A program made the translations under genes and the position numbers. Below the pieces are notes generated by a model. The model was given only the letters and a program-made list of their open reading frames with translations. It ran no database searches and had not been told where the DNA came from. A DNA stretch of 64,000 nucleotides from Parvivirga hydrogeniphila (GTDB lineage Bacteria > Actinomycetota > Coriobacteriia > Anaerosomatales > Anaerosomataceae): positions 311,501 through 375,500 of the forward strand of contig NZ_JAMCCO010000002.1 of assembly GCF_023371205.1 (NCBI RefSeq), read 5' to 3'. The first letter of the stretch is position 1. Every line of letters starts with the position of its first letter. This document shows positions 43,513-60,346 of this stretch, one piece after another.

Positions 43513-43582
43513 GCGATGCACGTCCTTTCGGCGTTGCCGGCCGCCGCAAGGCGAGAGGAGCCCTTACACTGCTCGGATTCTA

Positions 43583-44884
43583 TCACGCTTCCTGGTCGCC
43601 TGTAGCCGGCGCCTCCTCACGAGAGCCAGCGAGCAACTCCCGTTCCAAGAGCGCTCGGCGCCTGAGCGAGACCGACGAGACCGCACTTGCCGCAGCAACG
43701 AAGAAGGCGATGAGCGCCGCCCCGACGTACGGCGCGCGGTTGCTTGCGTCCACGTCTCCCTGCGGTCCGAATGGACGCTCGGCGTCAGCGGGCTCCACAC
43801 GCCAGATCTGGATCCTCCGGTTGCCGGTGTCTGCGACGTACAGCCGTGTGCCGTCGGAGGAGAACGCGACGTCGTTCGGATACTGGAGACGGCCGGCCGT
43901 CACGCCGGCCTCTCCGACCCTGCCGACCTCGGTGCCCGAGGCGTCCCACATGACGATCGCCTGGCCGAGCGTGTCCACGCCCGCCACCACGGCCTTCGAG
44001 CCGTCCGCCGCTGGCACAGCGGTGAGACCTCTCACGAGCCCTGACAGGCTCACGACGCGCTTGAACGCGCCTGCGCGGTCGAAGACGACGACCCGCATGT
44101 TGTTGCTGTCCGACACCCAGATCTCGTCGCCGACGACCGCGACGTCGTTCGGGAAGTCCAACGCGACCGCGACTCCCGTGGACTCCATCGCCGAGCGCTC
44201 GCCCCCGATCTCGGCTTCGATGACGCCGCGTGCGTCCATCACGAGCACCCGATGGCGCGAGGCCACGTCCGTCACGTACACGGCGCCGGACGGGTCCGTC
44301 TCGACCCCGAGCGGCGCGAACGCCAGCGGCGGCGCAGTCGCCTCGCGAGCGCTTGCCGGCGCTGTCGCGGCAGCCGCCGCCTTCTCGCGAGGCTCGACCT
44401 TGCGCAGCGTGCCGCTCGCCGGCTCGAAGCGGTAGAGCGCATCGGCCTTGCGATCCGTGATGTAGACCGCGCCGCGCTCGCTGTCGCACGCCACGTACGC
44501 TGGGGCGATGAGCGTCCCGCTGCCGATGACGCTTTCCGGCACGCCTCGCTCGTCGAAGACCCGCACCACGCCGGCGACGGAATCGGCGACGTACACGCGC
44601 GACCCGCACACCGCCACGCTCACGGGGCGCCCGAGCGGCTCATCGCCTGGCGTCGGGAACGCGGCCTCGTAGTAGAGGCGCAGCCCCGCGATCTCGTCGG
44701 GCGCGCCGGGGACCGCTTTGAGCGGTTCGGGCATCAGGGCGAGCGAGAGCGCGCCTGCTGCAGCGCACGTCACTGCGACGCCGGCAAGGACGAGGGGGGT
44801 CCGCGCGGCCCTGTCCGCCCAGACCTGCTGCACGCGTCCGAGGACGCCGGCCACGGAGCGCGCTTTGGCCCACGGACGCGTCAC
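43583..44884 (-). CDS. Membrane-anchored NHL-repeat protein
   Basis: 433 residues, GTG start one base after the lipoprotein stop. An N-terminal helix (LVLAGVAVTCAAAGALSLAL) precedes an extracytoplasmic NHL beta-propeller with repeats such as PVSVAVCGSRVYVADSVAGVVRVF (in pieces), FPNDVAVVGDEIWVSDSNNMRVVVF and YPNDVAFSSDGTRLYVADTGNRRIQIW. A second helix near residue 395 and a short cytoplasmic tail follow. NHL propellers generally serve as binding scaffolds. A related NHL gene ends the 53-60 kb cytochrome operon, suggesting a role tied to these electron-transfer complexes. Confidence 0.85.
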   Translation of the reverse strand: MTRPWAKARSVAGVLGRVQQVWADRAARTPLVLAGVAVTCAAAGALSLALMPEPLKAVPGAPDEIAGLRLYYEAAFPTPGDEPLGRPVSVAVCGSRVYVADSVAGVVRVFDERGVPESVIGSGTLIAPAYVACDSERGAVYITDRKADALYRFEPASGTLRKVEPREKAAAAATAPASAREATAPPLAFAPLGVETDPSGAVYVTDVASRHRVLVMDARGVIEAEIGGERSAMESTGVAVALDFPNDVAVVGDEIWVSDSNNMRVVVFDRAGAFKRVVSLSGLVRGLTAVPAADGSKAVVAGVDTLGQAIVMWDASGTEVGRVGEAGVTAGRLQYPNDVAFSSDGTRLYVADTGNRRIQIWRVEPADAERPFGPQGDVDASNRAPYVGAALIAFFVAAASAVSSVSLRRRALLERELLAGSREEAPATGDQEA

Positions 44885-44885
44885 G

Positions 44886-45728
44886 CTAGCTGCCGATGAT
44901 CCCGCCGACTTTCAGCACCGCCGGCTTGAGGTCGAGCGGCTTGCCGGTCTTCACGTGCATCTCGATCGTCACCAGCAACGACCCGTCCACGAACGCGGCG
45001 GCCGCGAAGCCGGAGCGCGTACCGAACCTGCCGCTCTTGCCGGCGATCGTCACGGTGGCGAAGTTGTCGGGGTAGGTCTGCTTGAATGCGTCGAGGCCGG
45101 CGGCGGCGCGCTTCGCATCCACCATCTGCTCCACCGAGATGACCATCAGGTCCGCAGTGCCCGAAAGCGGGATGTAGTTGCGGGTGATCGACGCAGGATC
45201 GGCGGTGAGGCCCTGCGCGGTGTAGCCCTCGATCTCGTCTGGCACGTACTTCAGCAGGTTGGCGACCGGACCGACAGGCTCCTCCCCGTCCGACGGAGGC
45301 GTACCTCCCCCGCCGGCCGTCGAGGTCCCGGACTGCGAGCCGTCCGCCGACGGGCTCCCGCCACCTGAGATCTCGTCGAGCTGCTGCTTGGCCTTGCCCC
45401 CCGCGTACGTCGGATCCTTCGCGACGATCGCAGCGAGCTTCGCGCGCGCGGCATTCGTGTCGCCTTGCGCGAGCGCTTGCTGCGCCGCTTCCCACAGCCC
45501 AGCGAGCCCCTGATGGCGCTCGCAGGTGATCACCTTGGTCGTGACGGAGTACTTCGAGACGTCCTTGACCGGCACTTCGATCTCTTTGGTGTTGTCCTCG
45601 ATGACCTCGCCTGCCGTGCACAGCACCACTTCGCCGGTGCGGACGGTCACCATCTTCCTCGCACAGCCCGTACCAGGAAGGGCGATGAGGAGAAGCAGAG
45701 CCACCACCACACGCACGGAACGCTTCAC
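44886..45728 (-). CDS. Putative lipoprotein of unknown function
   Basis: 280 residues from a GTG at 45728 overlapping the upstream stop (GTGA). The N terminus MKRSVRVVVALLLLIALPGTGC looks like a lipoprotein signal, though the lipobox is weak (no Leu/Val at -3). A short TPR-like helical stretch (LWEAAQQALAQGDTNAARAKLAAIVAKDP, in pieces) is followed by a Gly/Ser/Pro-rich linker. A C-terminal domain of about 110 residues was not recognised. It lies between a membrane protein and an NHL protein in the formate dehydrogenase operon. Confidence 0.7.
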   Translation of the reverse strand: MKRSVRVVVALLLLIALPGTGCARKMVTVRTGEVVLCTAGEVIEDNTKEIEVPVKDVSKYSVTTKVITCERHQGLAGLWEAAQQALAQGDTNAARAKLAAIVAKDPTYAGGKAKQQLDEISGGGSPSADGSQSGTSTAGGGGTPPSDGEEPVGPVANLLKYVPDEIEGYTAQGLTADPASITRNYIPLSGTADLMVISVEQMVDAKRAAAGLDAFKQTYPDNFATVTIAGKSGRFGTRSGFAAAAFVDGSLLVTIEMHVKTGKPLDLKPAVLKVGGIIGS

Positions 45729-47182
45729 GAGACCTCACCTCTTCGTTGCGATGCCGGTCGCTCTGCCAACAGTAGCGCGATGGCGAGCGCGACGCCACCC
45801 ACGGCCACGAGCATGCCGGGCGCGAAAAGCGGCCGGAAAGCGATCGTGGCGAACTCGCTCCCGTAGTCCACCTGGATCTCCCACGGTATCGCAGACGAGA
45901 GCGTGTGGAGCGGGGTGGACCAGACGAACGGCCATGCCGCCAGCCCTGCCGCGAGAGGAGTCCACGCGCGCGGGCGGCGGTCGTGGCTGCGCGCGACGGC
46001 GAGCGCCGCAACCGCGAGACCCACGGCGAGCCAGCCGCCGACGGTCTCCAGACCGAGCAGCGTGAACGACGCCTGGAACCGCGAGCTGTCCGCGCGTGTC
46101 GCAACGACCGACGCTTCGAGCGCGGGAAGCGCGAGCGAGACCAAGGACGCGATGAGCGCCACGACGGCTGCGAGCGACGCCCGGCGCGAGCCGGCGCCAC
46201 GCGACGAGCTCTGCGCGCCATCCGACACGAGCGCAGCGCCTGCGAGGACCGCCACAGCGCCTGCAACGGCCGGCCCGAGCAGTATCGGCTGGATGCCGAA
46301 CGGTTTGACGGTCTGTTCCACGACGGTGAACGCCGTCAGAAGAACGGCCGGCGTGAACCACGAAGCCGCCACGAGCGGGACCCCGCCGTGTCGAAGCGCG
46401 AACGACGCGCTGAGAGCGAGCGCCGCTGACGCTGCGACGATGAGCCACCACAGCAGCTGTCCCACCGCGTGGCCAAGAGCGGCCGCCTGCCACCGCGAGA
46501 CGGCGAGTGCCACGGCCGCCGCCAGCCCTCCTGCGGCGGCGCTCGCTGCCGCAGCCATCAACCGCCCCTCGCGCCTCGCGCGATCAAGCAGGCGCCACAG
46601 CGCCGCCCAGAGCACGCCTGCGGCGACGATGGCCGCTTCTTCTGCCCGGTACCGCACGAACAGCGAGAACGAGCTCGGGCGCTCCCAGTTCGCCACGACG
46701 CCGGCCACACCGGCAGCGGCCACGATCGCCCCCGCGACGCGGGCCAGAACCGAATCGCCTGGCCGCAGCGATGCGACCGCAAGCAGCAGGCCCCACCCGG
46801 CTGTGATGAGGAACAGCACCTCGCTCCCAGATGGGGCGTCGCTGTAGCGGTTGGAGGCGACGAGAAGCGGCGCGGCCGCGAACCCGACAGCGCCGAGGAA
46901 GAACGCCACGGTGGCGTCTTTTCGCGAGGCGGCGGTGCCACGCCGAAGGCTCGTGGAGGCAAGAAGCCCGACACCCGCCCCTGACGCCGTTGCAACAGCC
47001 ACCGCAACAGGCGCCAGCGTCCGCACCGCTGCTGTCGTGAGCGCGAACCACGCCGCCAGCGCGATTGCGAGCGCAAGGCCGAAGAGCAGGCCCGGCGAGA
47101 AGGAGGGGCCGGTCGCCCGGCCCCTCCCGTCGCTTCGGCCGCCATCAGGCTGGCCTGTGCGTGTCGCTACTTGTTGTGGCAT
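45725..47182 (-). CDS. Polytopic membrane protein of unknown function
   Basis: About 485 residues from the ATG at 47182; an alternative start is at 47191. It overlaps the cytochrome gene end by 16 bp. Twelve or so hydrophobic helices rich in Ala, Leu and Val, with few polar motifs. Conserved-looking spots include VANWERPSSFSLFVRYRAEE and WSTPLHTLSSAIPWEIQVDYGSEF (in pieces). No transporter or enzyme signature is evident. Its place after a multihaem cytochrome suggests a membrane part of the same respiratory complex, but that is inference. Confidence 0.7.
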   Translation of the reverse strand: MPQQVATRTGQPDGGRSDGRGRATGPSFSPGLLFGLALAIALAAWFALTTAAVRTLAPVAVAVATASGAGVGLLASTSLRRGTAASRKDATVAFFLGAVGFAAAPLLVASNRYSDAPSGSEVLFLITAGWGLLLAVASLRPGDSVLARVAGAIVAAAGVAGVVANWERPSSFSLFVRYRAEEAAIVAAGVLWAALWRLLDRARREGRLMAAAASAAAGGLAAAVALAVSRWQAAALGHAVGQLLWWLIVAASAALALSASFALRHGGVPLVAASWFTPAVLLTAFTVVEQTVKPFGIQPILLGPAVAGAVAVLAGAALVSDGAQSSSRGAGSRRASLAAVVALIASLVSLALPALEASVVATRADSSRFQASFTLLGLETVGGWLAVGLAVAALAVARSHDRRPRAWTPLAAGLAAWPFVWSTPLHTLSSAIPWEIQVDYGSEFATIAFRPLFAPGMLVAVGGVALAIALLLAERPASQRRGEVS

Positions 47183-48327
47183 GCCTCGCACACGTAGCGG
47201 TTGTTGCCGCGCAGCAGCGCGTTGCCGTCCTCAGGCGGGACACCGTTGGTGCCGGTGTCCGGCTGCGGGTCGAGCGGGTTCGCGATGCTCGCGTACCCCG
47301 TCATCACCGCGGACGAGCCGTGGGCGACGTGGCAGGTCAGGCAGTCCATCCAGTCCGTGGCGTCGTTGCTGGTCGCGTCGGTCCACCCGTCGTGCGCCAG
47401 GGGCAGCGGGTTGGTCGTCACGATGATCGACCGGTAGCCGGCGAAGTTCGACAGCGGGACGTTCACGGGGTGGCGGTACCGCATGACGTAACCGAAGCCG
47501 TCAGCGGCGTCGTAGGTGCTCTCAGCGCTCGTGTACTGCGTGTGGCACGCGGCGCACCACGCACTGATGCCCTTGCTCGTGTCCGCACCTGGCGCCTTGG
47601 CGTACCGAGGCGTCGTGTAGTCCGGCTTGTAGGTCGCCACCTGCGAAGCGCCTGGCTCGTGCAGCAACCAGCCGATTCCAGGATAGCCCTCCTCAGCCGA
47701 TACGACGTACGGCTGCGGAGTCGGGTTCTGCGGATCGACGCTGCCGTCGTAGCCGCCGACCGTCACGCCGTTGACGGTGTCCTTGAGCAAGCGGTAGTTC
47801 GACGAGCCGTGCACGTCGTGGCAGACCGTGCAGGAGATCTGCACCTGCGTGCCGCCGACAGAGATGATGCCGTCGCGGCCGGTGGTGCCACCGCCGTAGG
47901 CGACCCACGTCGTCCCGTTGGGGTAGTGGATCGTCGGGAACACGGCCGGGTCGAAGCCGCCGCCGTTCAGAGGCTCCCCGAACGTGTTGTACGTCCGGTC
48001 GGAGCCGGTGTCGGCGCCGTCGTCGGCCTCGAAGATGCCGTCGTACACGTTGGTGTCAGCACCGAGCATCGCCGAGCCGTGGCAGGTGTAGCAGAACTCG
48101 TCGATCGTCGTCGCCGTGCCGAGAAGCAGGGCGGACTGGTTCTGCGAGTTCAGATCGACCCACGTGATCGGGCTGGCCGCGGTGTGGGCCCGGTGGCAGC
48201 CTGCGCACGCATCGGTGCTCATGGTGTAGCTGCCGTGGACCGAGTAGTTCGCGAATGCGACGCCGGGCGCGAGGAGCAGGCCGGCTGCAACCGCGACAGC
48301 GAGGATCGCAAGCGCATGTCGCTTCAC
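47167..48327 (-). CDS. Hexahaem c-type cytochrome
   Basis: 386 residues from the GTG at 48327, which has AGGAGG ten bases upstream; the GTG at 48336 is too close to that site. A signal peptide (KRHALAILAVAVAAGLLLAPGVAFA, in pieces) precedes six CxxCH motifs (CAGCH, CYTCH, CTVCH, CAACH, CLTCH, CEACH), several followed by xxHG typical of cytochrome c3/554-like folds. As third gene after formate dehydrogenase alpha and beta it probably accepts electrons from the beta subunit or passes them outward. Confidence 0.88.
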   Translation of the reverse strand: MKRHALAILAVAVAAGLLLAPGVAFANYSVHGSYTMSTDACAGCHRAHTAASPITWVDLNSQNQSALLLGTATTIDEFCYTCHGSAMLGADTNVYDGIFEADDGADTGSDRTYNTFGEPLNGGGFDPAVFPTIHYPNGTTWVAYGGGTTGRDGIISVGGTQVQISCTVCHDVHGSSNYRLLKDTVNGVTVGGYDGSVDPQNPTPQPYVVSAEEGYPGIGWLLHEPGASQVATYKPDYTTPRYAKAPGADTSKGISAWCAACHTQYTSAESTYDAADGFGYVMRYRHPVNVPLSNFAGYRSIIVTTNPLPLAHDGWTDATSNDATDWMDCLTCHVAHGSSAVMTGYASIANPLDPQPDTGTNGVPPEDGNALLRGNNRYVCEACHNK

Positions 48328-48332
48328 AGTCT

Positions 48333-49187
48333 TCACACCTCCTCTTCGACGCCTGCTGCCAGCGCCTGCCGGCGAGCGATGACGGCCGCGAGGCCGCCCG
48401 CCAGCAGAGTAGGCACGAGCGCCGCTTTAGCGAACGGACCGGAGACCAAGGACGAGATGAGCGGGGTCACATGGTCTTCCACGTACGGATCTGCCTTCGG
48501 CGGAACGAGCAGGACCTTCCGGCTCGCCCAGAACATGCTACCGTCTCCGACCGCGGAGATGAAGCCGTTGGCCGGATCGTTGATGTAAGCGATGATGTTG
48601 TCGCGCGTGTCCCACATCATGGCGCGCGCCGGGCAGGTGAACACGCAGCTCGGCTGGTGCGCTTTCTCGGGCACAGCGGCGATCTCCTCTGCAGTCGCCT
48701 TGGTCGGCAACGGCGGTCCGTAGGAGGGGATGAGGCTCTCGCCTGCGCCCGCACGGCCGTAGCACAGCGTGCACTTCCACGCCTTGGCCGTCGAGTACAG
48801 GTCGGATCCGACGCCGATCTTCGGATAGCCGCCGCGGCCGCAGTCGATCTGGCACTGGTAGATGCACTTCACGCCGTTAGCGTTCGTGCCGCCCGGATTA
48901 CACTTCTCCGGATCGATGGCCACAGCGCCGTTCGGCATCTTCTTGATGGCGCCGAACGGGCAGCGCTTCTCGCACGGCGGGTTGGAGCAGTGCCAGCAGC
49001 TGAACCGCATGAACGGCCCCATGTCGACGCGCTTCTGGGACTTGATGATGACCCGCTGGTCCGGAGCGGTCTTGTGGACGCCCGGGTTGAGGGCCTTCAT
49101 CTTCCAGGTGCGCTTGCAGGAGATCACGCATCCGTTGCACCGCATGCACTTATCGACGTCCTGCAGGATTGCCATCACATTACCCAT
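48333..49187 (-). CDS. Formate dehydrogenase iron-sulfur subunit (beta)
   Basis: 284 residues; the ATG at 49187 has an ideal GGAGGTGAT. Ferredoxin-type cysteine clusters are CMRCNGCVISC, CSNPPCEKRCP, CIYQCQIDC, CTLCYGR and CVFTCPARA, enough for four [4Fe-4S] centres as in FdnH/DmsB-type subunits. A C-terminal transmembrane anchor (FAKAALVPTLLAGGLAAVIA) precedes RRQ. It relays electrons from the catalytic subunit to the membrane or to the next cytochrome. No separate cytochrome b gamma subunit follows. Confidence 0.92.
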   Translation of the reverse strand: MGNVMAILQDVDKCMRCNGCVISCKRTWKMKALNPGVHKTAPDQRVIIKSQKRVDMGPFMRFSCWHCSNPPCEKRCPFGAIKKMPNGAVAIDPEKCNPGGTNANGVKCIYQCQIDCGRGGYPKIGVGSDLYSTAKAWKCTLCYGRAGAGESLIPSYGPPLPTKATAEEIAAVPEKAHQPSCVFTCPARAMMWDTRDNIIAYINDPANGFISAVGDGSMFWASRKVLLVPPKADPYVEDHVTPLISSLVSGPFAKAALVPTLLAGGLAAVIARRQALAAGVEEEV

Positions 49188-49201: not shown

Positions 49202-52200
49202 TTAAGCCTTCTCGATCCTGCACAGGCAGACCTTGTACTCTGGGATCTTCGTGTTCGCGTCCCATGAGTCGATGCACAGGTCGTTCGCACGCGATCCGGT
49301 GCCGAGGCCGCGATCGCCCCAGTGCCACGGGATGGCCACGACGCCGGGAGCCACACGCTGGTTCGCCAGCGTGCCGACACCGACGCGCGCCTTGAAGCCC
49401 TTGGCCCAGCCGGAAACCGTCGTCCGGCCTTCCTCGTCTCCCGTGCTGTTGGACCGTGCCGTGATGACGTTGACATAGTCGCCGTCCTTGATGCCGTACT
49501 TCAAGGCATCGACCGAGTTAAGCTCGATCCACGGCTCGGGCTCCATCTCCACGTTCCACGGGTTGTTGCGGGTGATCGGGCCGCCCTGGAAGTGCTCGAC
49601 GCACCGGATGGTCGTGAGCACCAGCGGGTACTGGTCGACCGTACCGACCGGGGTGGTGACCCCGACCGTGCTGAGCAAAGAACTGCCGTTCGCGGTGTTC
49701 TTGCCCCAGCGGGCGACCAGGTCAGGCCGCGGCGACTCGTACGGCTCGGTGTAGGCCGGGAAGCGGCCGGGCAAGATGTGCGGATCGCCGATGCCGGTGT
49801 CCGGCGTGTCTGCCAGTGTGCTGTACTTGCGGTACAGGCCCGACCAGTCCGCAAGCAGGTTCGTGTTGTTCACGAACAGGCGCGCGAGGTAGCCCGGCGC
49901 GACGAAGACGTCTGCCACATCGCCCGAAAGCTCGCCGTTGTTGTAGAAGATCCGGCGGTTCAGGAGCCACGCCCAGCCGTACCGCGGGTACTGGAGCGAG
50001 GTGCCTGCGAGGTCGCCGTTCCGAGACTTCGCACGGTTGGCCTTGCCCCAGCCAGCGCCGACGGAAGGCTGCACATCGTCGGTGTTCGTGTTGTAGCCGG
50101 ACGCAGAACCGTTGCCGGAGTAGATCCACAGCGTGCCTGCGGGGCCGCTTGCAGCGTCGAGCGGAGAAGCCATCTCCTTGAAGATGTTCTCGGCAACGAC
50201 CTCGCTGCCGTACATCAGCACGCCTTCGGCGTCTGGCGCCGACAGGCTCTCGAAGTCGGTCGTGCCATCCCACCCGTACTTGGCGTACAGCACCGTCCAC
50301 GGGTCAGCACCTGCACCGCCGTTGTACAGCGACAGCACGGCGGTCAACGTGGCCCACACCGCCTTGATGTGGTCGAAAGCACCAGCGGCATTGAGCGCCT
50401 TGGCGAAGCGGAGCAGCAGCTCGAGGTCGGACTTGCTGTTGCCCTTCGGAGCACGCGCACGGTCACGCCACTGGATCCAGCGGCCGGAGCTCGTGACGGA
50501 GCCGGCTTCCTCCACGTGCGAACAGGCGGGAAGCAGGTACGTCACGCCGGTCGCCTTGCGCTTGCACTGCGCGGTCTCCGTGGCGAACATGTCGACCACC
50601 ACGAGCAGGTCGAGGTTCTCAAGACCCTGGCGGACAGCGCTCTGGTTCGGCTCCGTGACGGCGGGGTTCTGACCCCAGACCACGGCTGCCTTCACTTCTC
50701 CCGTGATCATCCGGCGGAACGCCTCGATGTGCTGGTAGCCGTTGCCCTTGGGCCAGCATGCGTACAGCGCGTCGAAGTCCGTACCGGTCACGTCGCGGTT
50801 GCCAAACCACTCACGGGTCATGTTGTAGAAGCCGCGCTGCTGCAAGCCGAGCTGCGATGGGTCGTACGGGTCCTTTGCTCCGGTTCCGACGACCCGGTTG
50901 CCGAACAGGCCGTTCGAGTAGTCGGGATAGGCCTGGCCGACGCCAGGGTTGCCCGAATAGCCCGGGATGAGGTCGAACAGCAGACCCATGTCGGTCGAGC
51001 CCTGGACATTGTGGATGCCGCGCAAGGCATTGATACCGCCGCCCGCACGACCCATGTTGCCCATGAGCGTCTGCGCGATCGCGTACGTGCGGATGCCCTG
51101 CGAGCCGGTGGTGAACTGCGTCGCGCCCATGGCGTACATGATGGTCGCCGCGCGGTACCCTGCGGCCGTCGGCGTCGCGGTCGCTGCGCCGAAGTCGATC
51201 GACGCGAAGCGGCTGTTCTCGATCCACGCTTGCGCGACCGCAGCGATGTCGGCCTCGGTGCAGCCGCAGATGTCGGCGACCGTCGCCGCATCGTACGGCG
51301 CCAGGTGTGAGCGCAGCTTCTGGAACACGCAGTCCGTGTCGTCGATGTTCGCAGCGAACTCCGGCATGTTGGAGAACGTCCAGCCGCTCGCGGTCTTGAG
51401 GATCACACGCTTGTAGTCGTCACCAGCAGCGTTCACCTTCGCACGCGAGTCGCAGTACTTGGGCCAGCCGTTCGCAAGCGGCGCCGCATACCAGGTGGTC
51501 CCGCCGTCGCTGCTGTACTCAGCCGTCGCCAGCTCAGCAGAGCTGAGGGTGCGCGACACGCCTGTGTCGTCGATGAACGAGCGGGTGAACGAACCAGAGT
51601 TCGACGCCGTGGTGTTGTGCCAGGCGAAGAAGTTGATCGACTTTTGATCCGTCGGATTCGCATACATCCAGTCGATGATGGCCTTCATCACGCCGTTCAT
51701 GAACGCGATGTTCGTGCCCGGACGGATGCGGACGTAGCGGTCGTGCTTGCGCTGGTCGTTCGGGTTCGACGCATCATGCGGCACGCCCGTGAGGCGCGCG
51801 GTGCGCGTCTGCCGCGGATCGACGACGATCAGCCCCGCGTTGCGCCCGCGGCCGTACGTGTCGAAGCGCGCGTGGTTGACGTGCGCAATGGAGGCCGGGT
51901 GGTTCTCAGCGGGGTTGGCGCCCAGCACCAGGAAGAGCGTGGAGTTGTCGAGGTCGACCCAGTTGTTGGTCATCGCGCCTCGTCCGAATGTGCGGCCAAG
52001 ACCGGCCACAGTGGACGAGTGTCATATACGGGCCTGGTGCTCGACGTTGCTGGTGCCGAAGTTCGCGACGATCTTGCGGTACAGGTAGTTCGCCTCGTTG
52101 CTTATGTGCGACGAGCCGAAGAACATGACCGACTTCGCGTTCGAAGCCGCCGTGCCTCCCGGCGTGACCGCACCGCGGATGGCGACAAGACCGGTGTGGT

Positions 52201-52663
52201 TGACGCCGTCGCCCGCTGCGATCTCGGTCATCGCGTCGTCGAGCGACATCTCGCTCCACGGGCCGTTGCCGATGCGCTTCCACGCGCGCCCGGTGAAGTC
52301 GTAGCCGTCGACCGCCGCCGTGTGCTCCGGGACGCCCAGGCGCCTCGGGTTCGTCACCAGCTGGTAGGAGCCTGCGCCCTTGGCGCACAGGCCGCCTCTG
52401 CTTGTCGGGGAGTTCGCGTCGCCGTAGATGTCGAGCACGGTGCCGTCGGCCGCGACGTCCACCTTCTGGCCGCACTGCGCTGAGCAGTACGGGCAGGTGG
52501 TGGTGTAGGTCGCTGCGACCTCAGCAGCATTGGCTCGAGACGGCGTGAACACGAGATCGGCGCCGGCCGCCCCGACGACAGCCGCTGCGGCGCCGGCCTT
52601 CAGGAAGTCGCGCCGAGTGAGCTCGAACTTCCCTCCAGTGCCTTGTTTGTCGTGTGTAGCCAT
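49202..52663 (-). CDS. fdhA: Selenocysteine-containing formate dehydrogenase, catalytic subunit
   Basis: 1153 residues when the in-frame TGA at 52022-52024 is read as selenocysteine (residue 214). Start at 52663 with GAGAGG upstream. A Tat signal (LTRRDFLK) is followed by the [4Fe-4S] site CPYCSAQCG...C93. Around the TGA the protein reads [30 protein letters not shown], matching the active site of FdnG-type enzymes (QARV-U-HGPTVASL). The rest carries the molybdopterin domains and the C-terminal PRITRNNPW-like and HWGDRGLG regions. It oxidises formate to CO2 outside the membrane using a Mo or W bis-MGD cofactor. Ordinary gene calling would split it in two. Confidence 0.93.
51979..52019 (-). 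promoter_or_regulatory. Bacterial SECIS hairpin directing selenocysteine insertion
   Basis: It begins two bases after the TGA on the minus strand. The lower stem CTCGTCC (52013-52019) pairs with GGACGAG (51979-51985). The upper stem TGTGGCC pairs with GGCCGCA, leaving the apical loop GGTCTT. The GGUCU loop resembles that of E. coli fdhF, which SelB recognises. Confidence 0.85.
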
Positions 52664-53051
52664 ACCCTTACCTCTCCGTTCAGTCGGTACTCCTGCGGGT
52701 CTTCCGCACCGAGTCCTTCGGTCCACACTCGACTACCTCGCCAGCGCCACCTCCTTCCTTCGGCCGTCATCGGGGGGAAACAAAGACCGGCCAGCACGCT
52801 CGCATCGGCGTCTGACCGGTCCTGTCGTCCGTATACGGCCTCCCTTACCCACATCGCGCACACATCGGCCCTCGTGAGGGCCTCCGGCTGCGCTCGTCCC
52901 CTTTCCGATGCGGGAGGCGCCGCGGTTTCCCACGACACCCTGTCGGCCCGAAGTCCGTGGCTTTCGCTGTAGGCGCTTGGGGCTCGGAGACGTCAACGGC
53001 CTTCTTCTGTTGCGTTCGACAGCGCCTGCCGGGGCCCCTGTCGAACGAGAG
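52664..53051 (-). promoter_or_regulatory. Long 5' leader of the formate dehydrogenase operon
   Basis: About 390 nt lie between the operator and the start codon with no convincing gene. It contains a 10-bp perfect hairpin, CGTTCGACAG...CTGTCGAACG (53013-53047), directly after the operator, and a GGCCCTC/GAGGGCC hairpin at 52871-52886. Between them is a GC-rich stretch with GCGAAAGCC and GGGAAACC segments that could be structured RNA. No T-run terminator is seen. Confidence 0.5.
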
Positions 53052-53144: not shown

Positions 53145-54659
53145 TCACCGCTTCGCCTTCCTGTCTCGCTCATCTACGAAGCTCGCTGCGTCGTACACCT
53201 GTGCGTCGAGCGCTCGGGCCACGCGCGCGAGCTCGGAGTACTGCGTGCCGAGGCGCCCGACGCGCTGCACGAGCGAAAGCAGGATGGCCGTATCGCGGTC
53301 GACGCCGGTCTTCTCGATCAGGTCCGCCACGTCGGATTCGGAGTGCGGCTCCCCGACGAGCAGGTCCCCGAGCCGCACGCCGCCGAGCACCGCGTCGGCG
53401 AGCCGCTCGTACTCAGAGTTCGGGACGATGAGCCGTAGACGCCTCTCTTGGAGCGCGTCCATCCGGTCCATCGCAGCGACCGCTTCGAGGAAGTCCTCGG
53501 TGACGACGATCTTGCGCTTCCGGAACGCAAGCGGCAGAAGAAGCAGCAGCAACGGCGAGAGGCACAGGCCCCACTGGGCCGGCTTCTCAGGGGGCGTGAC
53601 CGGCGGCACCACCGTGGTCGGCCACCCCCACACCTGGACTTGGTGGTTCTCGCGGTCCGTGATGTACATGCGGCCGCGCTTGTCGAGCGCGATGTCGTTC
53701 GGATACTGGAATTGGCCGGGACCCAGACCGGGCCCGCCGAAGGACACAAGGCGTTTCCCTTCCAGGTCGTACGCATCGATCATGTGTGCGAGCGGATCGA
53801 CGACGAGCAGGCGCTGCTCGCTGTCGATGACCATGCCTCGCGGCGTGCCGGACACCGGCAGGATGCGCAAGAACTGCCCCTGCGCATCGAAGACCTGCAC
53901 CCGCCTGTTGTTGCCGTCCGCGACGAAGATCTCACCTTCAGGCCCGATGGCGATGCTGTTCGGGAAGTAGAACGAGCCCGGCGAGTCCGTCATCCGGTTC
54001 GCCTGCACCGTCTTGCCGAAGCGCAGCACCTCGGTGCCGTCCTGCTCGAACACGAGCACGCGGTGGCCGCGGGTCTGACCGACGTCGCAGACGTACACCT
54101 TCCCGTCCGGACCGAACGTCACCGAGATCGGCGCCCACGTCTTGGCCGCGTCCGACTTCGGCACGAACCTGCGTTTGAAGACGCCGTCCTTGTCGAAGAC
54201 GAAGATCCCGCGGAGCAAGCGGTCCGTGACCCAGATCTCGCCAGACGGGCTTTGCGCGACGCGGCCCGGCTGCGCGAGGTGCGTGGCCTCATCGCTCGTC
54301 AGCGCACCGAAGCTGAAGAGGTACGAGCCGTCGGTGCGGTACACGCGCACGACGTCGCTCTTCAGGTCGGTGACATAGACCCGGTCGTCCTTCGTCACGT
54401 ACACGCCGATCGGCTTGGCGAGCGCATCTTTGCCCGCCGGTCCCGCGATCGCATACAGGAACTCCGGTGGCTGCACCGCTTGCGTACCGCCGGTCACGAA
54501 CGGGATGGGGAGCCGACGGTTCGCCTGGTAGTAGAGCGCCGAGTACGTCAGGAGCGCGAGGAGCAGCACCAGCACAACGAGCAGGATCGCTTTCCTGCGC
54601 TTTGCTCTGCGCTCTCTGTCTGCGAGGTACCGGTCGAGCCGAACGGATACATCAGCCAC
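53145..54659 (-). CDS. Membrane-anchored NHL-repeat protein with cytoplasmic tail
   Basis: 504 residues, GTG start at 54659. An N-terminal membrane helix (KAILLVVLVLLLALLTYSALYY, in pieces) is followed by an NHL propeller (PIGVYVTKDDRVYVTDLKSDVVRVY, FPNSIAIGPEGEIFVADGNNRRVQVF and YPNDIALDKRGRMYITDRENHQVQVW, all in pieces). A second helix (LCLSPLLLLLLPLAF) precedes an unusual cytoplasmic domain of about 120 residues rich in charged helices. It ends the multihaem cytochrome operon. It is a paralogue of the 43583 gene, which also ends a cytochrome operon. Confidence 0.86.
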   Translation of the reverse strand: MADVSVRLDRYLADRERRAKRRKAILLVVLVLLLALLTYSALYYQANRRLPIPFVTGGTQAVQPPEFLYAIAGPAGKDALAKPIGVYVTKDDRVYVTDLKSDVVRVYRTDGSYLFSFGALTSDEATHLAQPGRVAQSPSGEIWVTDRLLRGIFVFDKDGVFKRRFVPKSDAAKTWAPISVTFGPDGKVYVCDVGQTRGHRVLVFEQDGTEVLRFGKTVQANRMTDSPGSFYFPNSIAIGPEGEIFVADGNNRRVQVFDAQGQFLRILPVSGTPRGMVIDSEQRLLVVDPLAHMIDAYDLEGKRLVSFGGPGLGPGQFQYPNDIALDKRGRMYITDRENHQVQVWGWPTTVVPPVTPPEKPAQWGLCLSPLLLLLLPLAFRKRKIVVTEDFLEAVAAMDRMDALQERRLRLIVPNSEYERLADAVLGGVRLGDLLVGEPHSESDVADLIEKTGVDRDTAILLSLVQRVGRLGTQYSELARVARALDAQVYDAASFVDERDRKAKR

Positions 54660-54677
54660 GTTGCACGCTCCGAGGTC

Positions 54678-55694
54678 TCACTTCTTCTTCGACAGTGCTT
54701 CAAGCGCCGCGACCGCTTCCGGATCTTCCGGAGCGAGCTGCAGCACCTTCTCCCACGCGTCGGCCGCGTCCTTCGCGCTTCCCAGTTCTTGCAAGAGCCG
54801 TGCCTTGATGCGCGCAGCGTCCACGTTCTTCGGGTCGAGCGCCGCAGCGATCCTGGCCTGTTCGAGCGCCGCCTTCTTGTCGGTGGCGAGCAGCGCTTCA
54901 GCCTTCGCGAGCCTCTCCGAGAACGGCCCGAGCTTCTCCAGCTCCTTGAGCGGCTCCGGTTGCCCCGGCGCGCCGTCGATCGCTCGACGGAACGCCTCCG
55001 CCGCCCCAGCGAGGTCGCCGTCTTTCACCAGCAACCGCCCGAGGTCGTAGTTCGCTTCCGGCAGCAGCGGATCGAAGGCGAGCGCGGTCTCGAGCTCCTG
55101 GCGCGACTTGTCTAGGATGCCGAGCTCGCGGTACGCCACCGACAGCGCATAGTGCGTGTCCGAAGCGTCGCGCCGGATCCGAAGCGCCTCTTTGAGGTAA
55201 CCGGCGGCGTCCTCGTACTGCTTGCGCTTGATGAGCGTGACGCCGAGGTAGTAGTACGCACGCTCGAGCCGTTCGTCGGCACCGGCGATCTGCCCCCCGC
55301 TGAGCTTGTCGACGATCCGCCGGAAGTAGCCTTCCGCAGTCGCCCACTGCTGCTGCTTGAGCGCGATCATCCCCAGACCCTCGAGCGCGACGGGGTTGTC
55401 CTCGTCGAGCTTCAGCGCGGCCTGGAACTGCTCGATGGCCTCGTTCAGCCGGCCCTGGCCGGCAAGCGCCTGTCCGAGCAGGATCCGCGCGTCAGGGTTC
55501 CTCGGCTCTCTCCGGACGGCCTCGGCGAGGGTGTCCACGGCGCGCGCGGCGATCGTGGTTGTCTGCGTGCGCCGTTGGTAGTCCCAGGCGGTGTACGCCA
55601 GGTACAGCAACGCGACCACGACGAGAGCGGCGACTGCTTTGAGTGCGACGTCGAGCTGGCGGCTTGATACTCGGAACTTCACGGGACTGGTCAC
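54678..55694 (-). CDS. Membrane-anchored TPR protein
   Basis: 338 residues. One N-terminal helix (VALKAVAALVVVALLYLAYTAW) is followed by six or more tetratricopeptide units (PDARILLGQALAGQGRLNEAIEQF, NPVALEGLGMIALKQQQWATAEGYF and similar, in pieces). TPR proteins assemble partner complexes, and here the TPR face would be outside the membrane. Its neighbours are a 20-haem cytochrome and an NHL protein, so a scaffold for the cytochrome complex is likely. Confidence 0.85.
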   Translation of the reverse strand: MTSPVKFRVSSRQLDVALKAVAALVVVALLYLAYTAWDYQRRTQTTTIAARAVDTLAEAVRREPRNPDARILLGQALAGQGRLNEAIEQFQAALKLDEDNPVALEGLGMIALKQQQWATAEGYFRRIVDKLSGGQIAGADERLERAYYYLGVTLIKRKQYEDAAGYLKEALRIRRDASDTHYALSVAYRELGILDKSRQELETALAFDPLLPEANYDLGRLLVKDGDLAGAAEAFRRAIDGAPGQPEPLKELEKLGPFSERLAKAEALLATDKKAALEQARIAAALDPKNVDAARIKARLLQELGSAKDAADAWEKVLQLAPEDPEAVAALEALSKKK

Positions 55695-55703
55695 TCCTGC
55701 TCG

Positions 55704-57308
55704 TCAGATCTTCAGGTCGGTATGGCAGCGTCGGCAGAGCTCGGAGCCAGGCCACGGCGCTATCTGGAGCCGGTTCACGTCGAGGGCGCCGTGGCAATCA
55801 TAGCAGGCGCGCAAGTCGTGCGGGCCCGAGAGCTGGCTCGTGACGTGCACCTCGGAGAAGCCGAACCCGATGTGGCACTCCGAGCACTGGTACGGCTTGC
55901 CCTTCTTCTTGGCCACGTCGAAGTGCACGGCGTGCTCCGCGAGCGGCGCGTTCTTGATCTTCGTCGCCGGCTCCGTGCGCATCTCCGGATGGCACTTCAC
56001 GCAGTTCTCGCGCACGAGGTCTACGGAGCGCACACCTTGATGGTGGCATTCCTGGCAGGTGCGGCGGTCTTTGTGGCAGACGTTGCAGTCCTTGCCGAGC
56101 GCTCCGTTCTGCTTCGAGTGCGCGGCGAGCCAGTCCGCCGGGTGCGGCATGGCGGTCTGGTGGCACTTCGTGCACGACGGCGAGTCGTGGCACACGGCGC
56201 ACAGCCCTTCTTGCGCCAGGTACCGGCCGCCGTGGTCGGTCCGCCACTGCGTCTTCTTGTGATCGGCAGGCACGACCTTCGGGCTGACGCGCCCGTCGGC
56301 CATCTTCACGCCGCCGTTGTGGCACTTCACGCAGGCGCTCGACTTGTGGCACATCGAGCAGTACGTCGGCTCGCTTCGGGCGCGGTCGCGGTGACCGCCG
56401 CTCAGGAACTGCTTCGTGTGGTTCGCCGGAACGAGCTTGAACTCTTTCGGGTGGCACGCACTGCACGTCTCCGGCGCGACTTCGCCCTTGTCGCCGTGCA
56501 CGAGTCCATGGCAGCGATAGCAGTCCAGCATCGAGTTGTACAGCGTGCCCTGCGGCTGGTGCGGGAACTTCGGATGGCACGTCACGCACTTGTACGCACG
56601 CTTGAGGTGGGTGTCGTGCGTGAAGATGATGCGGCCCGGCGTGATGCCGTTGATGTCTGCGTGGCAGAAGACGCACTGCCCGACGGTCACAGGTTCGTCG
56701 ACGTCGATGAGCACAGATGGCTCGTCGGGCTTCACGGGCACCGTGCGGAGGTACACGGCGGGCATCGGCCCGATCCCCGGCTTCTCGCGCGCATGGCACT
56801 CGTCGCAGTCTTCTTTGGGCTCATGGCAGAGCAGGCAGCCGTTCACGTTCGGCTTCGCCGCGCGCGCGTGGGGCTCCGCCTTCCAGTCCTTGACGTGCGA
56901 GGCCGGTCTGAGCGGGAAGTCCTTGGTGTGGCAGTCGCGGCAGGTCCCGCTCGCGATGATGCCTGACGGACCGTGCGCAAGACCGTGGCACGAGAAGCAC
57001 GTCTGCATCGTGGGCCGCATCGTCGTGCCGTCGCGATGCGGCGTCGCTACGTGGCACGCGGAGCACTCCACAGTGAGGTGCGACGCGTGGCTGAATATCA
57101 GACCCTGTTGTTTCGCCGAGCCGATCGAAGGGTGGCACGGCATGCAGTTGCGCGGCTCGATCGGGCCGGTGAGGTCGATCGGCGGCGTGTCGGTCTGCGT
57201 GAGCGCGGTCTCGGAGGCGCCGGCGACGAAGGCGGCCGCCAGGAGCGCGGCGGCCGCCACCTTCAGAGATCGCCTCCACACGACGCTCGCACGCATCCTG
57301 TCAGTCAC
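55704..57308 (-). CDS. Twenty-haem c-type cytochrome
   Basis: 534 residues (GTG at 57308, overlapping the previous stop by 8 bp; an ATG at 57296 is possible). Signal peptide, then 20 CxxCH motifs from CMPCH to CRRCH. The first 12 fall into two related six-haem blocks with the order CxxCH, F[ST]HxxH, CxxCH, PHxxGT, CxxCHxLxHG, CxxCH, then two close CxxCH. Extra histidines between motifs suggest bis-His ligation. It should be an exported electron relay. The same six-haem block starts the 13-haem protein encoded upstream. Confidence 0.9.
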   Translation of the reverse strand: MTDRMRASVVWRRSLKVAAAALLAAAFVAGASETALTQTDTPPIDLTGPIEPRNCMPCHPSIGSAKQQGLIFSHASHLTVECSACHVATPHRDGTTMRPTMQTCFSCHGLAHGPSGIIASGTCRDCHTKDFPLRPASHVKDWKAEPHARAAKPNVNGCLLCHEPKEDCDECHAREKPGIGPMPAVYLRTVPVKPDEPSVLIDVDEPVTVGQCVFCHADINGITPGRIIFTHDTHLKRAYKCVTCHPKFPHQPQGTLYNSMLDCYRCHGLVHGDKGEVAPETCSACHPKEFKLVPANHTKQFLSGGHRDRARSEPTYCSMCHKSSACVKCHNGGVKMADGRVSPKVVPADHKKTQWRTDHGGRYLAQEGLCAVCHDSPSCTKCHQTAMPHPADWLAAHSKQNGALGKDCNVCHKDRRTCQECHHQGVRSVDLVRENCVKCHPEMRTEPATKIKNAPLAEHAVHFDVAKKKGKPYQCSECHIGFGFSEVHVTSQLSGPHDLRACYDCHGALDVNRLQIAPWPGSELCRRCHTDLKI

Positions 57309-58542
57309 GACCTCCGAGTATCGAGCCGACGAAGCGCAGCAGGCCGTTCTCCTGCCGCACGACCACCTTCTTGTGGATCAGGTCGCGCGAGGCGCGGACG
57401 AACGATTCGCTCGAGTCCTTGTGCTGGTGGCACCGCGCACACGTGGCCGGGAGGTTGGCCGGGTCGACCGGGGACGCGGGATCGCCAGCGGCCTTCACGT
57501 CGTGCGCATCGTGGCAGTCCCAGCACGCGGGAGCGTCCTTCGCGCCGCGCTTGTACGCAGCGCCGTGGTAATAGTCGCTGTACGAGTCCCAGTACTCCTT
57601 GTGGCACGTCCCGCACATCTGCTCAGCGGACGCGTGCAGCGCTTCGCTCGCTTCTTTCGTGTCCAGCCGCTGGATGTCGTGGCCCCCGTGGCACGAGCCG
57701 CACGTGGCGGAGCGGAGATTGCCCTTCGCGATCTCTTTCGCGTGCACCGAGGTCGCGTACGCCTTCGCCTGCGCGTCGTGGTCGTGGCATTCGGCACACG
57801 CAAGGCCGGCGTTGATGTTCCACAGCGGCGTGGGCGCCTGCACCTCGGCGTACGCGAAGTCCACGTGGCACTTCTGGCAGCTCAGGTCGCGGTGCGCCGA
57901 ACGCTCGAGGCCGGTGACCTGGAACGACTTGATGCCAGCGCTCGTGGTCCGCACGAGGTTCGGGCTTCCATGGCACGCCTGGCAGCCGGTGCCCGCATCG
58001 TACACGAACGGGACCGGCGGCTCCCACTGGACGCCCGTCTTCAGATGGCAGTCGTCGCACTCCTTGCGCGTATGGCACATCGCGCACTTCGTGGTGAGCT
58101 CATCGCGCGCCGGCTGCACGTGCGGCTTCTCCGCCCAGTCCTCGGTGTGGAACGCAGGGCGCAGCGGCTTGCCGGTGGCGTAGTGGCAGTCGAAGCACTT
58201 GCCTGTAGCGAGGACGCCCTGAGGACCGTGGTTAAGCGCGTGGCAGTTGAAGCACTGCTTCATGTCCATCTTGAGCGTGCCCTCAGGACGGTGCGGGAAC
58301 TGCGTATGGCAGCTCGAGCACGCGTACGTGATGTGGTTGCCGTGGCTGAACTTCACCGGGAACGTGGCCGGCGTCTTCGCCACGTTGCCGTGGCACGGAG
58401 CACACTTGTCGGCGAAGACGGTGCCGCCGATGTCGATCGTCAGGCCATACGCGGTCGCAGCCCACCCGAACGACACGCACGCGAGCACCATCGCAACGAG
58501 CGCTGCCGAGACAAGCCTGCCGGAGCGTGTCTCTGTCTTCAC
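57301..58542 (-). CDS. Thirteen-haem c-type cytochrome
   Basis: 413 residues with a signal peptide (LVSAALVAMVLACVSFGWAATA, in pieces) and 13 CxxCH motifs. The N-terminal six resemble the repeated block of the 20-haem protein. The C-terminal seven resemble the neighbouring smaller cytochrome, including a nearly identical YWDSYSDYYHGAAYKRGAKD segment followed by ACWDCH. It thus looks like a fusion of two modules. It is expected to be outside the cytoplasmic membrane, and ends with a short hydrophobic tail (GLLRFVGSILGG). Confidence 0.9.
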   Translation of the reverse strand: MKTETRSGRLVSAALVAMVLACVSFGWAATAYGLTIDIGGTVFADKCAPCHGNVAKTPATFPVKFSHGNHITYACSSCHTQFPHRPEGTLKMDMKQCFNCHALNHGPQGVLATGKCFDCHYATGKPLRPAFHTEDWAEKPHVQPARDELTTKCAMCHTRKECDDCHLKTGVQWEPPVPFVYDAGTGCQACHGSPNLVRTTSAGIKSFQVTGLERSAHRDLSCQKCHVDFAYAEVQAPTPLWNINAGLACAECHDHDAQAKAYATSVHAKEIAKGNLRSATCGSCHGGHDIQRLDTKEASEALHASAEQMCGTCHKEYWDSYSDYYHGAAYKRGAKDAPACWDCHDAHDVKAAGDPASPVDPANLPATCARCHQHKDSSESFVRASRDLIHKKVVVRQENGLLRFVGSILGGRD

Positions 58543-58591
58543 TGTCCTGTCCCCTACCCTTCTCGCACCTCGGATCCTCTGAAACCGTCAC

Positions 58592-59497
58592 TCAGCCCTT
58601 CAGCACGAACCCGAACAGCTTTCGCAGCAGTCGGTACACAGGGTTGTCCTGTTTCGCTTGGCGCTTCCCGTGTATGGCGTCCTTATACGACGACACGAAG
58701 TCTTCGTCGACCGTGCTGCGCTTGTGGCACCCTTCCTGGCCGCAGGTCTCGACGAGGTTGGCCTCGCTCACGCGAGACTTGCGGTCCTTGGCCGGCAGGA
58801 TGTCGTGCCAGCCGTGGCAGTCCCAGCAAGCAGGAGCATCTTCCGCTCCACGCTTGTACGCCGCGCCGTGGTAGTAGTCGTCGTAACTGTCCCAGTAGTC
58901 CTGATGGCACCGGCCGCACACCTCCCAGCCCGACGCGTGCATCGCGGCCTGTCCCGCCTTCGATTCCGTGAGCTTCTGGATGGCGTGGCTCCCGTGGCAG
59001 TCACCGCACAGCGGCTTGGATTCCTCCACGCTCGCTCGCGTGCCCGTCGCGTCCACAGCACGCTGGTGCGCTCCCTTGCCGAACGCCACGAACTGCTCGT
59101 CGTGGCAGTTGCGGCACGCGGTCTTCGCAGTCACTTGCCAGGCGACGTCGGTGTCGTGCGGCAGTTTGTACGCGAAGTCCAGATGGCACGCGACGCACTG
59201 CTCCTTGCCGTGAACCGAGGATCCGTACTCGTCAGGCGCCACGTAGTAGCTGGTGATCTTCCCGGCCTTCAGCCGTACCAGGTCGGGATCCCCGTGGCAC
59301 ACCAGGCACCCGGACTTGCTCTGCGTCGGCAGCGTGAAGTCGAGGTCGTAGCCTGACGTCGCTGACCGTGACGCAGGCACCGTCGCGACCAGCGATGGCG
59401 TTTGCGCATGCGCCGTCCCCGCCCACGCGGCGACGGCAACCAGGCAGAGCGCGAACGCTCGAGCAGGCCCCCAGTTTCCTCGTGCTCGAGTCGTCAC
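58592..59497 (-). CDS. Heptahaem-type c cytochrome (six CxxCH and one CX4CH)
   Basis: 301 residues with signal peptide ending near GTAHAQ. Haem motifs are CLVCH, CVACH, CRNCH, CGDCH, CGRCH, CWDCH and the longer CGQEGCH. The YWDSYDDYYHGAAYKRGAED segment before ACWDCH is shared with the 13-haem protein. The fold resembles NapC/NrfH- or c554-related cytochromes, but no membrane anchor remains after cleavage; the C terminus is amphipathic (LLRKLFGFVLKG). It follows the cytochrome b gene and probably takes its electrons. Confidence 0.88.
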   Translation of the reverse strand: MTTRARGNWGPARAFALCLVAVAAWAGTAHAQTPSLVATVPASRSATSGYDLDFTLPTQSKSGCLVCHGDPDLVRLKAGKITSYYVAPDEYGSSVHGKEQCVACHLDFAYKLPHDTDVAWQVTAKTACRNCHDEQFVAFGKGAHQRAVDATGTRASVEESKPLCGDCHGSHAIQKLTESKAGQAAMHASGWEVCGRCHQDYWDSYDDYYHGAAYKRGAEDAPACWDCHGWHDILPAKDRKSRVSEANLVETCGQEGCHKRSTVDEDFVSSYKDAIHGKRQAKQDNPVYRLLRKLFGFVLKG

Positions 59498-59500
59498 GAA

Positions 59501-60346
59501 CTAGTCTCCTTCTGCGTGGGCGGCTGCAAGTCCGGCCCGGGCATCCTCATGCTCGTCGTGGTGGGCGTACGCGTCCGGATAGACGGTCATCTTCTTGATG
59601 CCGAAGAAGTCGAGGGAGCACGGAAGATCCTCGGCAACAGCCAGATACATGTGGACCGTGACAAGGATGATGAACACCCAGTTGATGCTGTAATGGATGA
59701 TGCGGACCCACGCCCCTGCCAATGCGACGCTGCCGGGAAGCCACCCGAGAAGCACCTCGCGAGGCGAAAGCCCGAACAAGAACGGCTGCGTCAGGAGAGC
59801 GATACCCGTGATGCCCTGGAACAACATCAGCACGGCGAACAGGTCGTAGGTGATCTTCTGCATGACGTTGTACTTCGCGACGTGCGGCTTCTTGTTGCTG
59901 AGGTAGAAGTAGTACATCGCGACGCCGATCATCGACTGGAGATCCTTCTTGGTGATGGCGAACTCCTTGTAGTCGCGCTCCTTGGAGAAGAACGCGTACC
60001 ACAGCCGCCAGAAGTAGTTGATGCCCACGATGAACGCCGCAACGTAGTGCAGGTAGCGCATGGCCGTCCGGCCGCCATCGAAGAAGGGGAACCGGATGTA
60101 CATGCCAGAGAACGCGAGCAGGCCCATCATAGCCAGGTGCTGGAAATGCATGAACTTCGGCAGCGCAGGCGGCGCCCAATCGTGCTTCGGCCACTCGTGA
60201 TCGACCCACTTCTTCTTGAAGCGTCCGGTCGGGATGCCGAGCACGAACAGATGCACCACGAAGAACGCTACGAGCACCAGCAGCCAGACCGTGGTGAACA
60301 CCACGTCGAGCCACACGTTCACTTGAGTCAGCAGAATCGCCAACAC
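59501..60346 (-). CDS. Dihaem cytochrome b membrane subunit
   Basis: 281 residues (GTG at 60346, TTG at 60343 also possible). Four to five membrane helices with histidines placed for b-type haems: FMHFQHLAMMGLLAFSG, MRYLHYVAAFIVGINYFWRLW (in pieces) and WVRIIHYSINWVFIILVTVHMYL (in pieces). This resembles FdnI, hydrogenase cytochrome b and cytochrome b561-type subunits, which exchange electrons with menaquinone. As first gene of the multihaem operon it is the likely link between the quinone pool and the cytochromes. Confidence 0.87.
   Translation of the reverse strand: MLAILLTQVNVWLDVVFTTVWLLVLVAFFVVHLFVLGIPTGRFKKKWVDHEWPKHDWAPPALPKFMHFQHLAMMGLLAFSGMYIRFPFFDGGRTAMRYLHYVAAFIVGINYFWRLWYAFFSKERDYKEFAITKKDLQSMIGVAMYYFYLSNKKPHVAKYNVMQKITYDLFAVLMLFQGITGIALLTQPFLFGLSPREVLLGWLPGSVALAGAWVRIIHYSINWVFIILVTVHMYLAVAEDLPCSLDFFGIKKMTVYPDAYAHHDEHEDARAGLAAAHAEGD

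Follow-up and report, generated by a model that had tools for sequence, protein, structure and literature searches.

A conserved in-frame UGA, predicted to be read as selenocysteine, in a formate dehydrogenase-type gene of the actinobacterium Parvivirga hydrogeniphila

The fdhA locus of Parvivirga hydrogeniphila raises the question of whether two consecutive ORFs on the minus strand represent two genes, one broken gene, or one gene with a recoded stop codon. The locus lies in a 64,000-nucleotide stretch of DNA analyzed here (the window) from a genome of 1,840,996 bases in 9 contigs, and a mechanical ORF listing places the two ORFs at 52726-52022 and 52009-49202. An initial annotation of this DNA had instead followed coding from 52663 through a TGA at 52022-52024 and on to 49202, and its coordinates proved exact. 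Once the TGA is read as U, fdhA (49202..52663, minus strand) is a single frame from an ATG at 52663 to a TAA ending at 49202, and the TGA, at residue 214, is its sole interruption. The product would be a putative Tat-exported formate dehydrogenase catalytic subunit of 1153 amino acids with a predicted selenocysteine (Sec) at residue 214. From the sequence evidence set out below, we infer with very high confidence that both reading frames form one intact formate-dehydrogenase-type gene in which the UGA is recoded as Sec.

Pfam matches above cut-offs placed a Tat signal, the PF04879 Fe4S4 domain, the PF00384 molybdopterin oxidoreductase domain (residues 175-755), and the PF01568 dinucleotide-binding domain in one frame spanning the TGA, and the domain order of the read-through protein is that of formate dehydrogenase catalytic subunits. 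The best named family for FdhA was TIGR01553 (formate-DH-alpha; E 7e-135), and the closest solved structure was Desulfovibrio gigas FdhA (1h0h; E 4e-97). In an unbroken stretch of the structural alignment, EHQARI-X-HSATVAAL, residue 214 aligned with the X denoting Sec in 1h0h, and the same region was also aligned with ARICHS of a selenocysteine-containing FdhA entry. U214-H215 and NALRG, in the conserved Arg region, likewise matched 1h0h. FdhA contains all of the features of its superfamily, namely, the Fe4S4, molybdopterin oxidoreductase, and dinucleotide-binding domains, the Sec-His pair, and the Arg region, and the in-frame UGA falls at a redox-active site at which homologs have Sec or Cys. 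Homology and the ability of the strain to grow on formate (PMC9686372) suggest that FdhA oxidizes formate or reduces CO2.

These alignments bear on whether the locus might produce two real proteins through termination at the TGA and reinitiation at a GTG at 52009. The GTG is within 12 bases of the TGA and opens a frame of 935 amino acids, but a split at this point would cut PF00384, leave the Fe4S4 and catalytic domains on different proteins, and forfeit the metal ligand. Furthermore, the GTG sits inside the hairpin described below, and Cys-containing homologs are single uninterrupted frames. We consider production of two proteins highly improbable and a single read-through enzyme the far better reading of the locus.

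The initial annotation had drawn a SECIS-like hairpin with a GGUCU apical loop and two stems at 51979..52019 (minus strand). This element folds as drawn at exactly those positions, with an energy of -24.1 kcal/mol compared to -16.8 +/- 2.6 for shuffled sequences (z -2.9). With the constraints of the bSECIS model taken from PMC13188914 (MFE threshold, -7.5), the hairpin conformed in having a 4-nt loop, GUCU, closed by G-U, an 8-bp upper stem, a UGA-to-loop distance of 19 nt, and an MFE far under the threshold. Of the 1315 TGAs that the window contains, 274 (21%) pass this loose model, so the model alone is weak evidence. A GGTCT apex combined with an energy of <= -21 was found at the fdhA TGA only (1 of 1315), and TGA-N18-GGTCT occurs a single time in the window. 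The covariance-model search that the initial annotation had proposed gave a match to Rfam SECIS_3 over the whole length of the element (35.1 bits; E 1.2e-6 in 201 nt), which was significant though below the gathering score of 63 and was the only SECIS match in positions 30000-64000 (E = 2e-4 in 34 kb). The element is also present in the orthologs of relatives L022, L023, L024, and L026.

A second line of evidence for the hairpin came from codon usage among homologs. We compared 30 sequences (431 pairs with less than 85% identity) and, wherever two of them had the same amino acid, scored whether the codon was also identical, subtracting the value expected for the amino acid concerned. This normalized synonymous codon identity was +0.336 above expectation over the 13 codons after the TGA, relative to 1016 background codon windows away from this site with a mean of about 0, a standard deviation of 0.044, and a maximum of 0.113. 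Codon windows over the SECIS thus ranked top by far with this measure, with a z of 7.6 that serves as a guide rather than a probability since the codon windows overlap and the sequences are related. Raw synonymous conservation was also tried and was set aside; the SECIS codon window ranked only fifth of 1043 in that analysis owing to a strong bias in two-fold codons elsewhere.

The apical structure also followed the identity of the codon at the active site. GGTCT was present at the apex in 32 of 33 distinct TGA-containing sequences, the exception being L073. These sequences had a mean of 6 contiguous apical pairs, and the pairs vary on both sides between groups (e.g., GUGGCC/GGCCGC to GUUGCC/GGCAAC). 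Among Cys homologs, GGTCT was found in 0 of 7 although Gly-Leu is still encoded, and apical stems had a mean of 1.4 contiguous pairs. The association of TGA or Cys with GGTCT gave a Fisher value of 4e-7, which overstates independence because the sequences are related.

In the class, 109 of 398 genomes contained an fdhA match at E <= 1e-50. Matches with 50% or higher identity spanning the site all reported one internal TGA, and when these relatives were read codon by codon (leaving out L061 and L062, in which the site pattern was not found), all had TGA at the residue-214 site. Dozens of relatives, some only about 35% identical, shared this TGA in an otherwise open frame. Cys codons (TGC or TGT) occupied the site within open frames in L072, L074, and L076-L080 and were found solely in more distant subfamilies. 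The splitting of fdhA by mechanical ORF callers might be taken to indicate a pseudogene, with a TGA that arose recently by nonsense mutation and a decaying frame beyond it. However, the retention of the TGA and an open frame across these relatives, codons after the TGA that are the most constrained in fdhA, and the status of FdhA as the sole PF00384 enzyme in an organism living on formate leave this explanation with a vanishingly small probability. Close relatives had the TGA in an intact frame rather than a sense codon in a decayed one.

Two observations concern the more distant homologs. In a second FDH subfamily within the same family, about 36-38% identical, Sec and Cys alternate between near neighbors with nearly equal flanks. 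L073 has a TGA, GGTTT in place of GGTCT, and a different hairpin, and its near neighbors L072 and L074 have TGC.

Recoding of fdhA would require Sec machinery, which the initial annotation had suggested looking for elsewhere in the genome. Family searches detected all four components over cut-off on contig C1: selD (C1:434766), selA (C1:437649), selB (C1:439077), and tRNA-Sec (C1:441032; 74.9 bits; anticodon TCA by ARAGORN). These genes cluster within 6.4 kb, and tRNA-Sec adjoins selB. Together with the intact, TGA-containing frames of close relatives, this complete set bears out the earlier argument that the locus is recoded and is not a pseudogene; neither of the two refuting findings named in the initial annotation was encountered. 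selD has its own in-frame TGA (L017, 1531-1533) in the context KSG-U-AAK, the UxxK context characteristic of Sec-containing SelD, and a hairpin conforming to the bSECIS model follows this TGA; the selD hairpin had no match in Rfam. SelD is therefore likely a selenoprotein itself, and with two genes containing in-frame TGA codons, the genome probably encodes at least two selenoproteins. Some genomes with a TGA-type fdhA lacked a SelA match, G045, G049, and G073 among others; in these three, all of high completeness, no SelB match exceeded the cut-off either. Perhaps these cases reflect assembly gaps, or the machinery may be altered.

An in-frame TGA would also be expected if the genome had reassigned this codon to a standard amino acid. 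TGA is the normal stop codon of eight neighboring genes, which indicates that the genetic code is not reassigned. Moreover, just one position is affected in fdhA, and a tRNA-Sec with anticodon TCA lies beside selB. Reassignment consequently has a negligible probability, as low as that of a pseudogene. We favor a mechanism in which the hairpin just downstream of the UGA would recruit SelB, so that ribosomes with SelB and Sec-tRNA would read the codon as selenocysteine. The product would be the catalytic subunit of a Mo/W formate dehydrogenase, exported through the Tat pathway, and by homology its Sec would ligate the metal.

The surrounding genes suggest how such an enzyme may be regulated and connected. 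A Moco (molybdenum/tungsten cofactor) riboswitch aptamer lies in the operon leader (52882..53001, minus strand; Rfam RF01055, 63.2 bits against a gathering score of 36, E 7.6e-13) and is likewise found upstream of fdhA in L022, L023, L024, and L026, so that operon expression probably responds to cofactor supply. Starting 14 bases after fdhA, fdhB (48333..49187, minus strand) encodes a predicted 4Fe-4S electron-transfer subunit of 284 amino acids (PF13247) with one hydrophobic C-terminal helix at residue 252 and weak matches, below cut-offs, to NF038355 (FDH3_beta) and TIGR01582 (FDH-beta). The next gene (47167..48336, minus strand) shares its first 4 bases with the end of fdhB and encodes a hexaheme c-type cytochrome with 6 CXXCH motifs (paired CXXCH, PF09699) that is 63-94% identical and adjoins fdhB in four relatives. 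The order fdhA-fdhB-hexaheme cytochrome is kept in L022, L023, L025, and L026. This arrangement of an iron-sulfur subunit and a hexaheme cytochrome right after fdhA suggests an FdhAB-plus-cytochrome complex; no gene for an FdnI-type b (gamma) subunit was adjacent.

Upstream of fdhA, a run of minus-strand genes at 53145..60346 encodes, from Pfam matches and CXXCH counts, a cytochrome b561-like protein, three multiheme cytochromes (6, 13, and 20 CXXCH), and TPR and NHL proteins, with gene order at 53145-58542 conserved in relatives. The b561-like PF01292 protein (59501-60346), about 7 kb upstream, heads this run and fits hydrogenase cytochrome b better than TIGR01583. The run at 53145-60346 resembles an extracellular electron conduit. 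Downstream, positions 39841-47191 (minus strand) encode a membrane protein, a putative lipoprotein, an NHL protein, and a 1226-amino-acid surface protein and are partly conserved in relatives.

Comparison with known systems places FdhA near the FdhAB enzymes of the D. gigas and D. vulgaris type (1h0h, 8cm4, and others), which share Sec in ARI-U-HS, the NALRG/NVQGSTD region, Fe4S4 and dinucleotide-binding domains, and a separate iron-sulfur subunit. In contrast to these proteins, Parvivirga FdhA is about 140-180 residues longer, with insertions, and has a hexaheme paired-CXXCH cytochrome as its partner, a Moco riboswitch leader, and an actinobacterial host. Desulfovibrio FdhABC3 is a three-subunit enzyme with a dedicated cytochrome c, and the Parvivirga locus has the same fdhA-fdhB-cytochrome c gene set. 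Whereas the dedicated cytochrome of FdhABC3 is a tetraheme cytochrome c3, that of Parvivirga has six CXXCH motifs of a doubled type and weak cytochrome c3 similarity (a Cytochrom_c3_2 match below cut-off). Escherichia coli FdnGHI (1kqf; TIGR01553) also shares Sec at the metal, a SECIS downstream of the UGA, and the domain order. The FdnG-type active site with Sec that the initial annotation proposed was upheld for the Sec alignment and membership in the FdhA/FdnG superfamily, but not for FdnG itself, as FdhA falls under the TIGR01553 FdnG equivalog cut-off (451.1 bits versus 814.2), is partnered by a c-type cytochrome, and has no adjacent FdnI.

P. hydrogeniphila Es71-Z0120T, of the Anaerosomatales (OPB41), can grow with Fe(III) on either formate or H2, with Fe(III) citrate in the case of formate, and had no detected quinones (PMC9686372). 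Since no PF00384 protein other than FdhA was found in the genome, fdhA almost certainly is, or contains, the FDH gene described as MCL4079382-3 in that study, in which the word selenocysteine is absent. The genome paper reported that only the catalytic domain of such an enzyme class is encoded (MCL4079383) and that other typical CISM genes are absent; contrary to this description, an Fe-S subunit and a cytochrome lie directly downstream of fdhA. With recoding accepted, the Sec molybdoenzyme could still be mainly a CO2 reductase of the reductive glycine pathway or part of Fe(III) reduction, rather than a respiratory formate oxidase. The same paper assigns FDH MCL4079382-3 to CO2 reduction in this pathway and lists a molybdopterin oxidoreductase within the multiheme cluster MCL4079376-90. 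However, the Tat signal and multiheme partners suggest an extracytoplasmic enzyme, for which formate oxidation is usual, formate is used as a donor, and the genome has no other PF00384 enzyme. We regard these alternative roles as unlikely, albeit with an appreciable chance, and both formate oxidation and CO2 reduction are chemically possible.

For a respiratory formate oxidase, electrons from formate would most likely pass from FdhA to FdhB, the adjacent hexaheme cytochrome, and then multiheme cytochromes for Fe(III) reduction, a route and direction to which our confidence in recoding does not extend. More tentatively, and with rather more doubt than belief, we propose that in this actinobacterial Fe(III) reducer, Sec-containing FdhAB may pass electrons straight to its own hexaheme cytochrome and then to a surface multiheme chain, bypassing quinones, under Moco-riboswitch control. 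In Coriobacteriaceae sp. EMTCatB1, a close relative (L026) that resembles Parvivirga in combining FDH with a multiheme cytochrome, FDH 1c0408/1c0407/1c0406 and the adjacent multiheme cytochrome were highly expressed on a biocathode (PMC7943316). This is probably the orthologous operon, and the word selenocysteine is absent from the text of that paper as well.

Among bacterial selenoproteins, Sec formate dehydrogenases form the most widespread family (PMC1794560, PMC13188914), and the event at fdhA is a textbook case of recoding. In this lineage, it has not been pointed out before within the literature searched; in the open-access literature, we found no paper combining formate dehydrogenase, selenocysteine, and Coriobacteriia. 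Recoding of fdhA restores a complete enzyme where mechanical annotation shows two fragments, so that the value of the finding lies in an annotation correction and a testable link from formate to multiheme cytochromes. On this reading, Anaerosomatales (OPB41) probably need selenium for iron reduction driven by formate.
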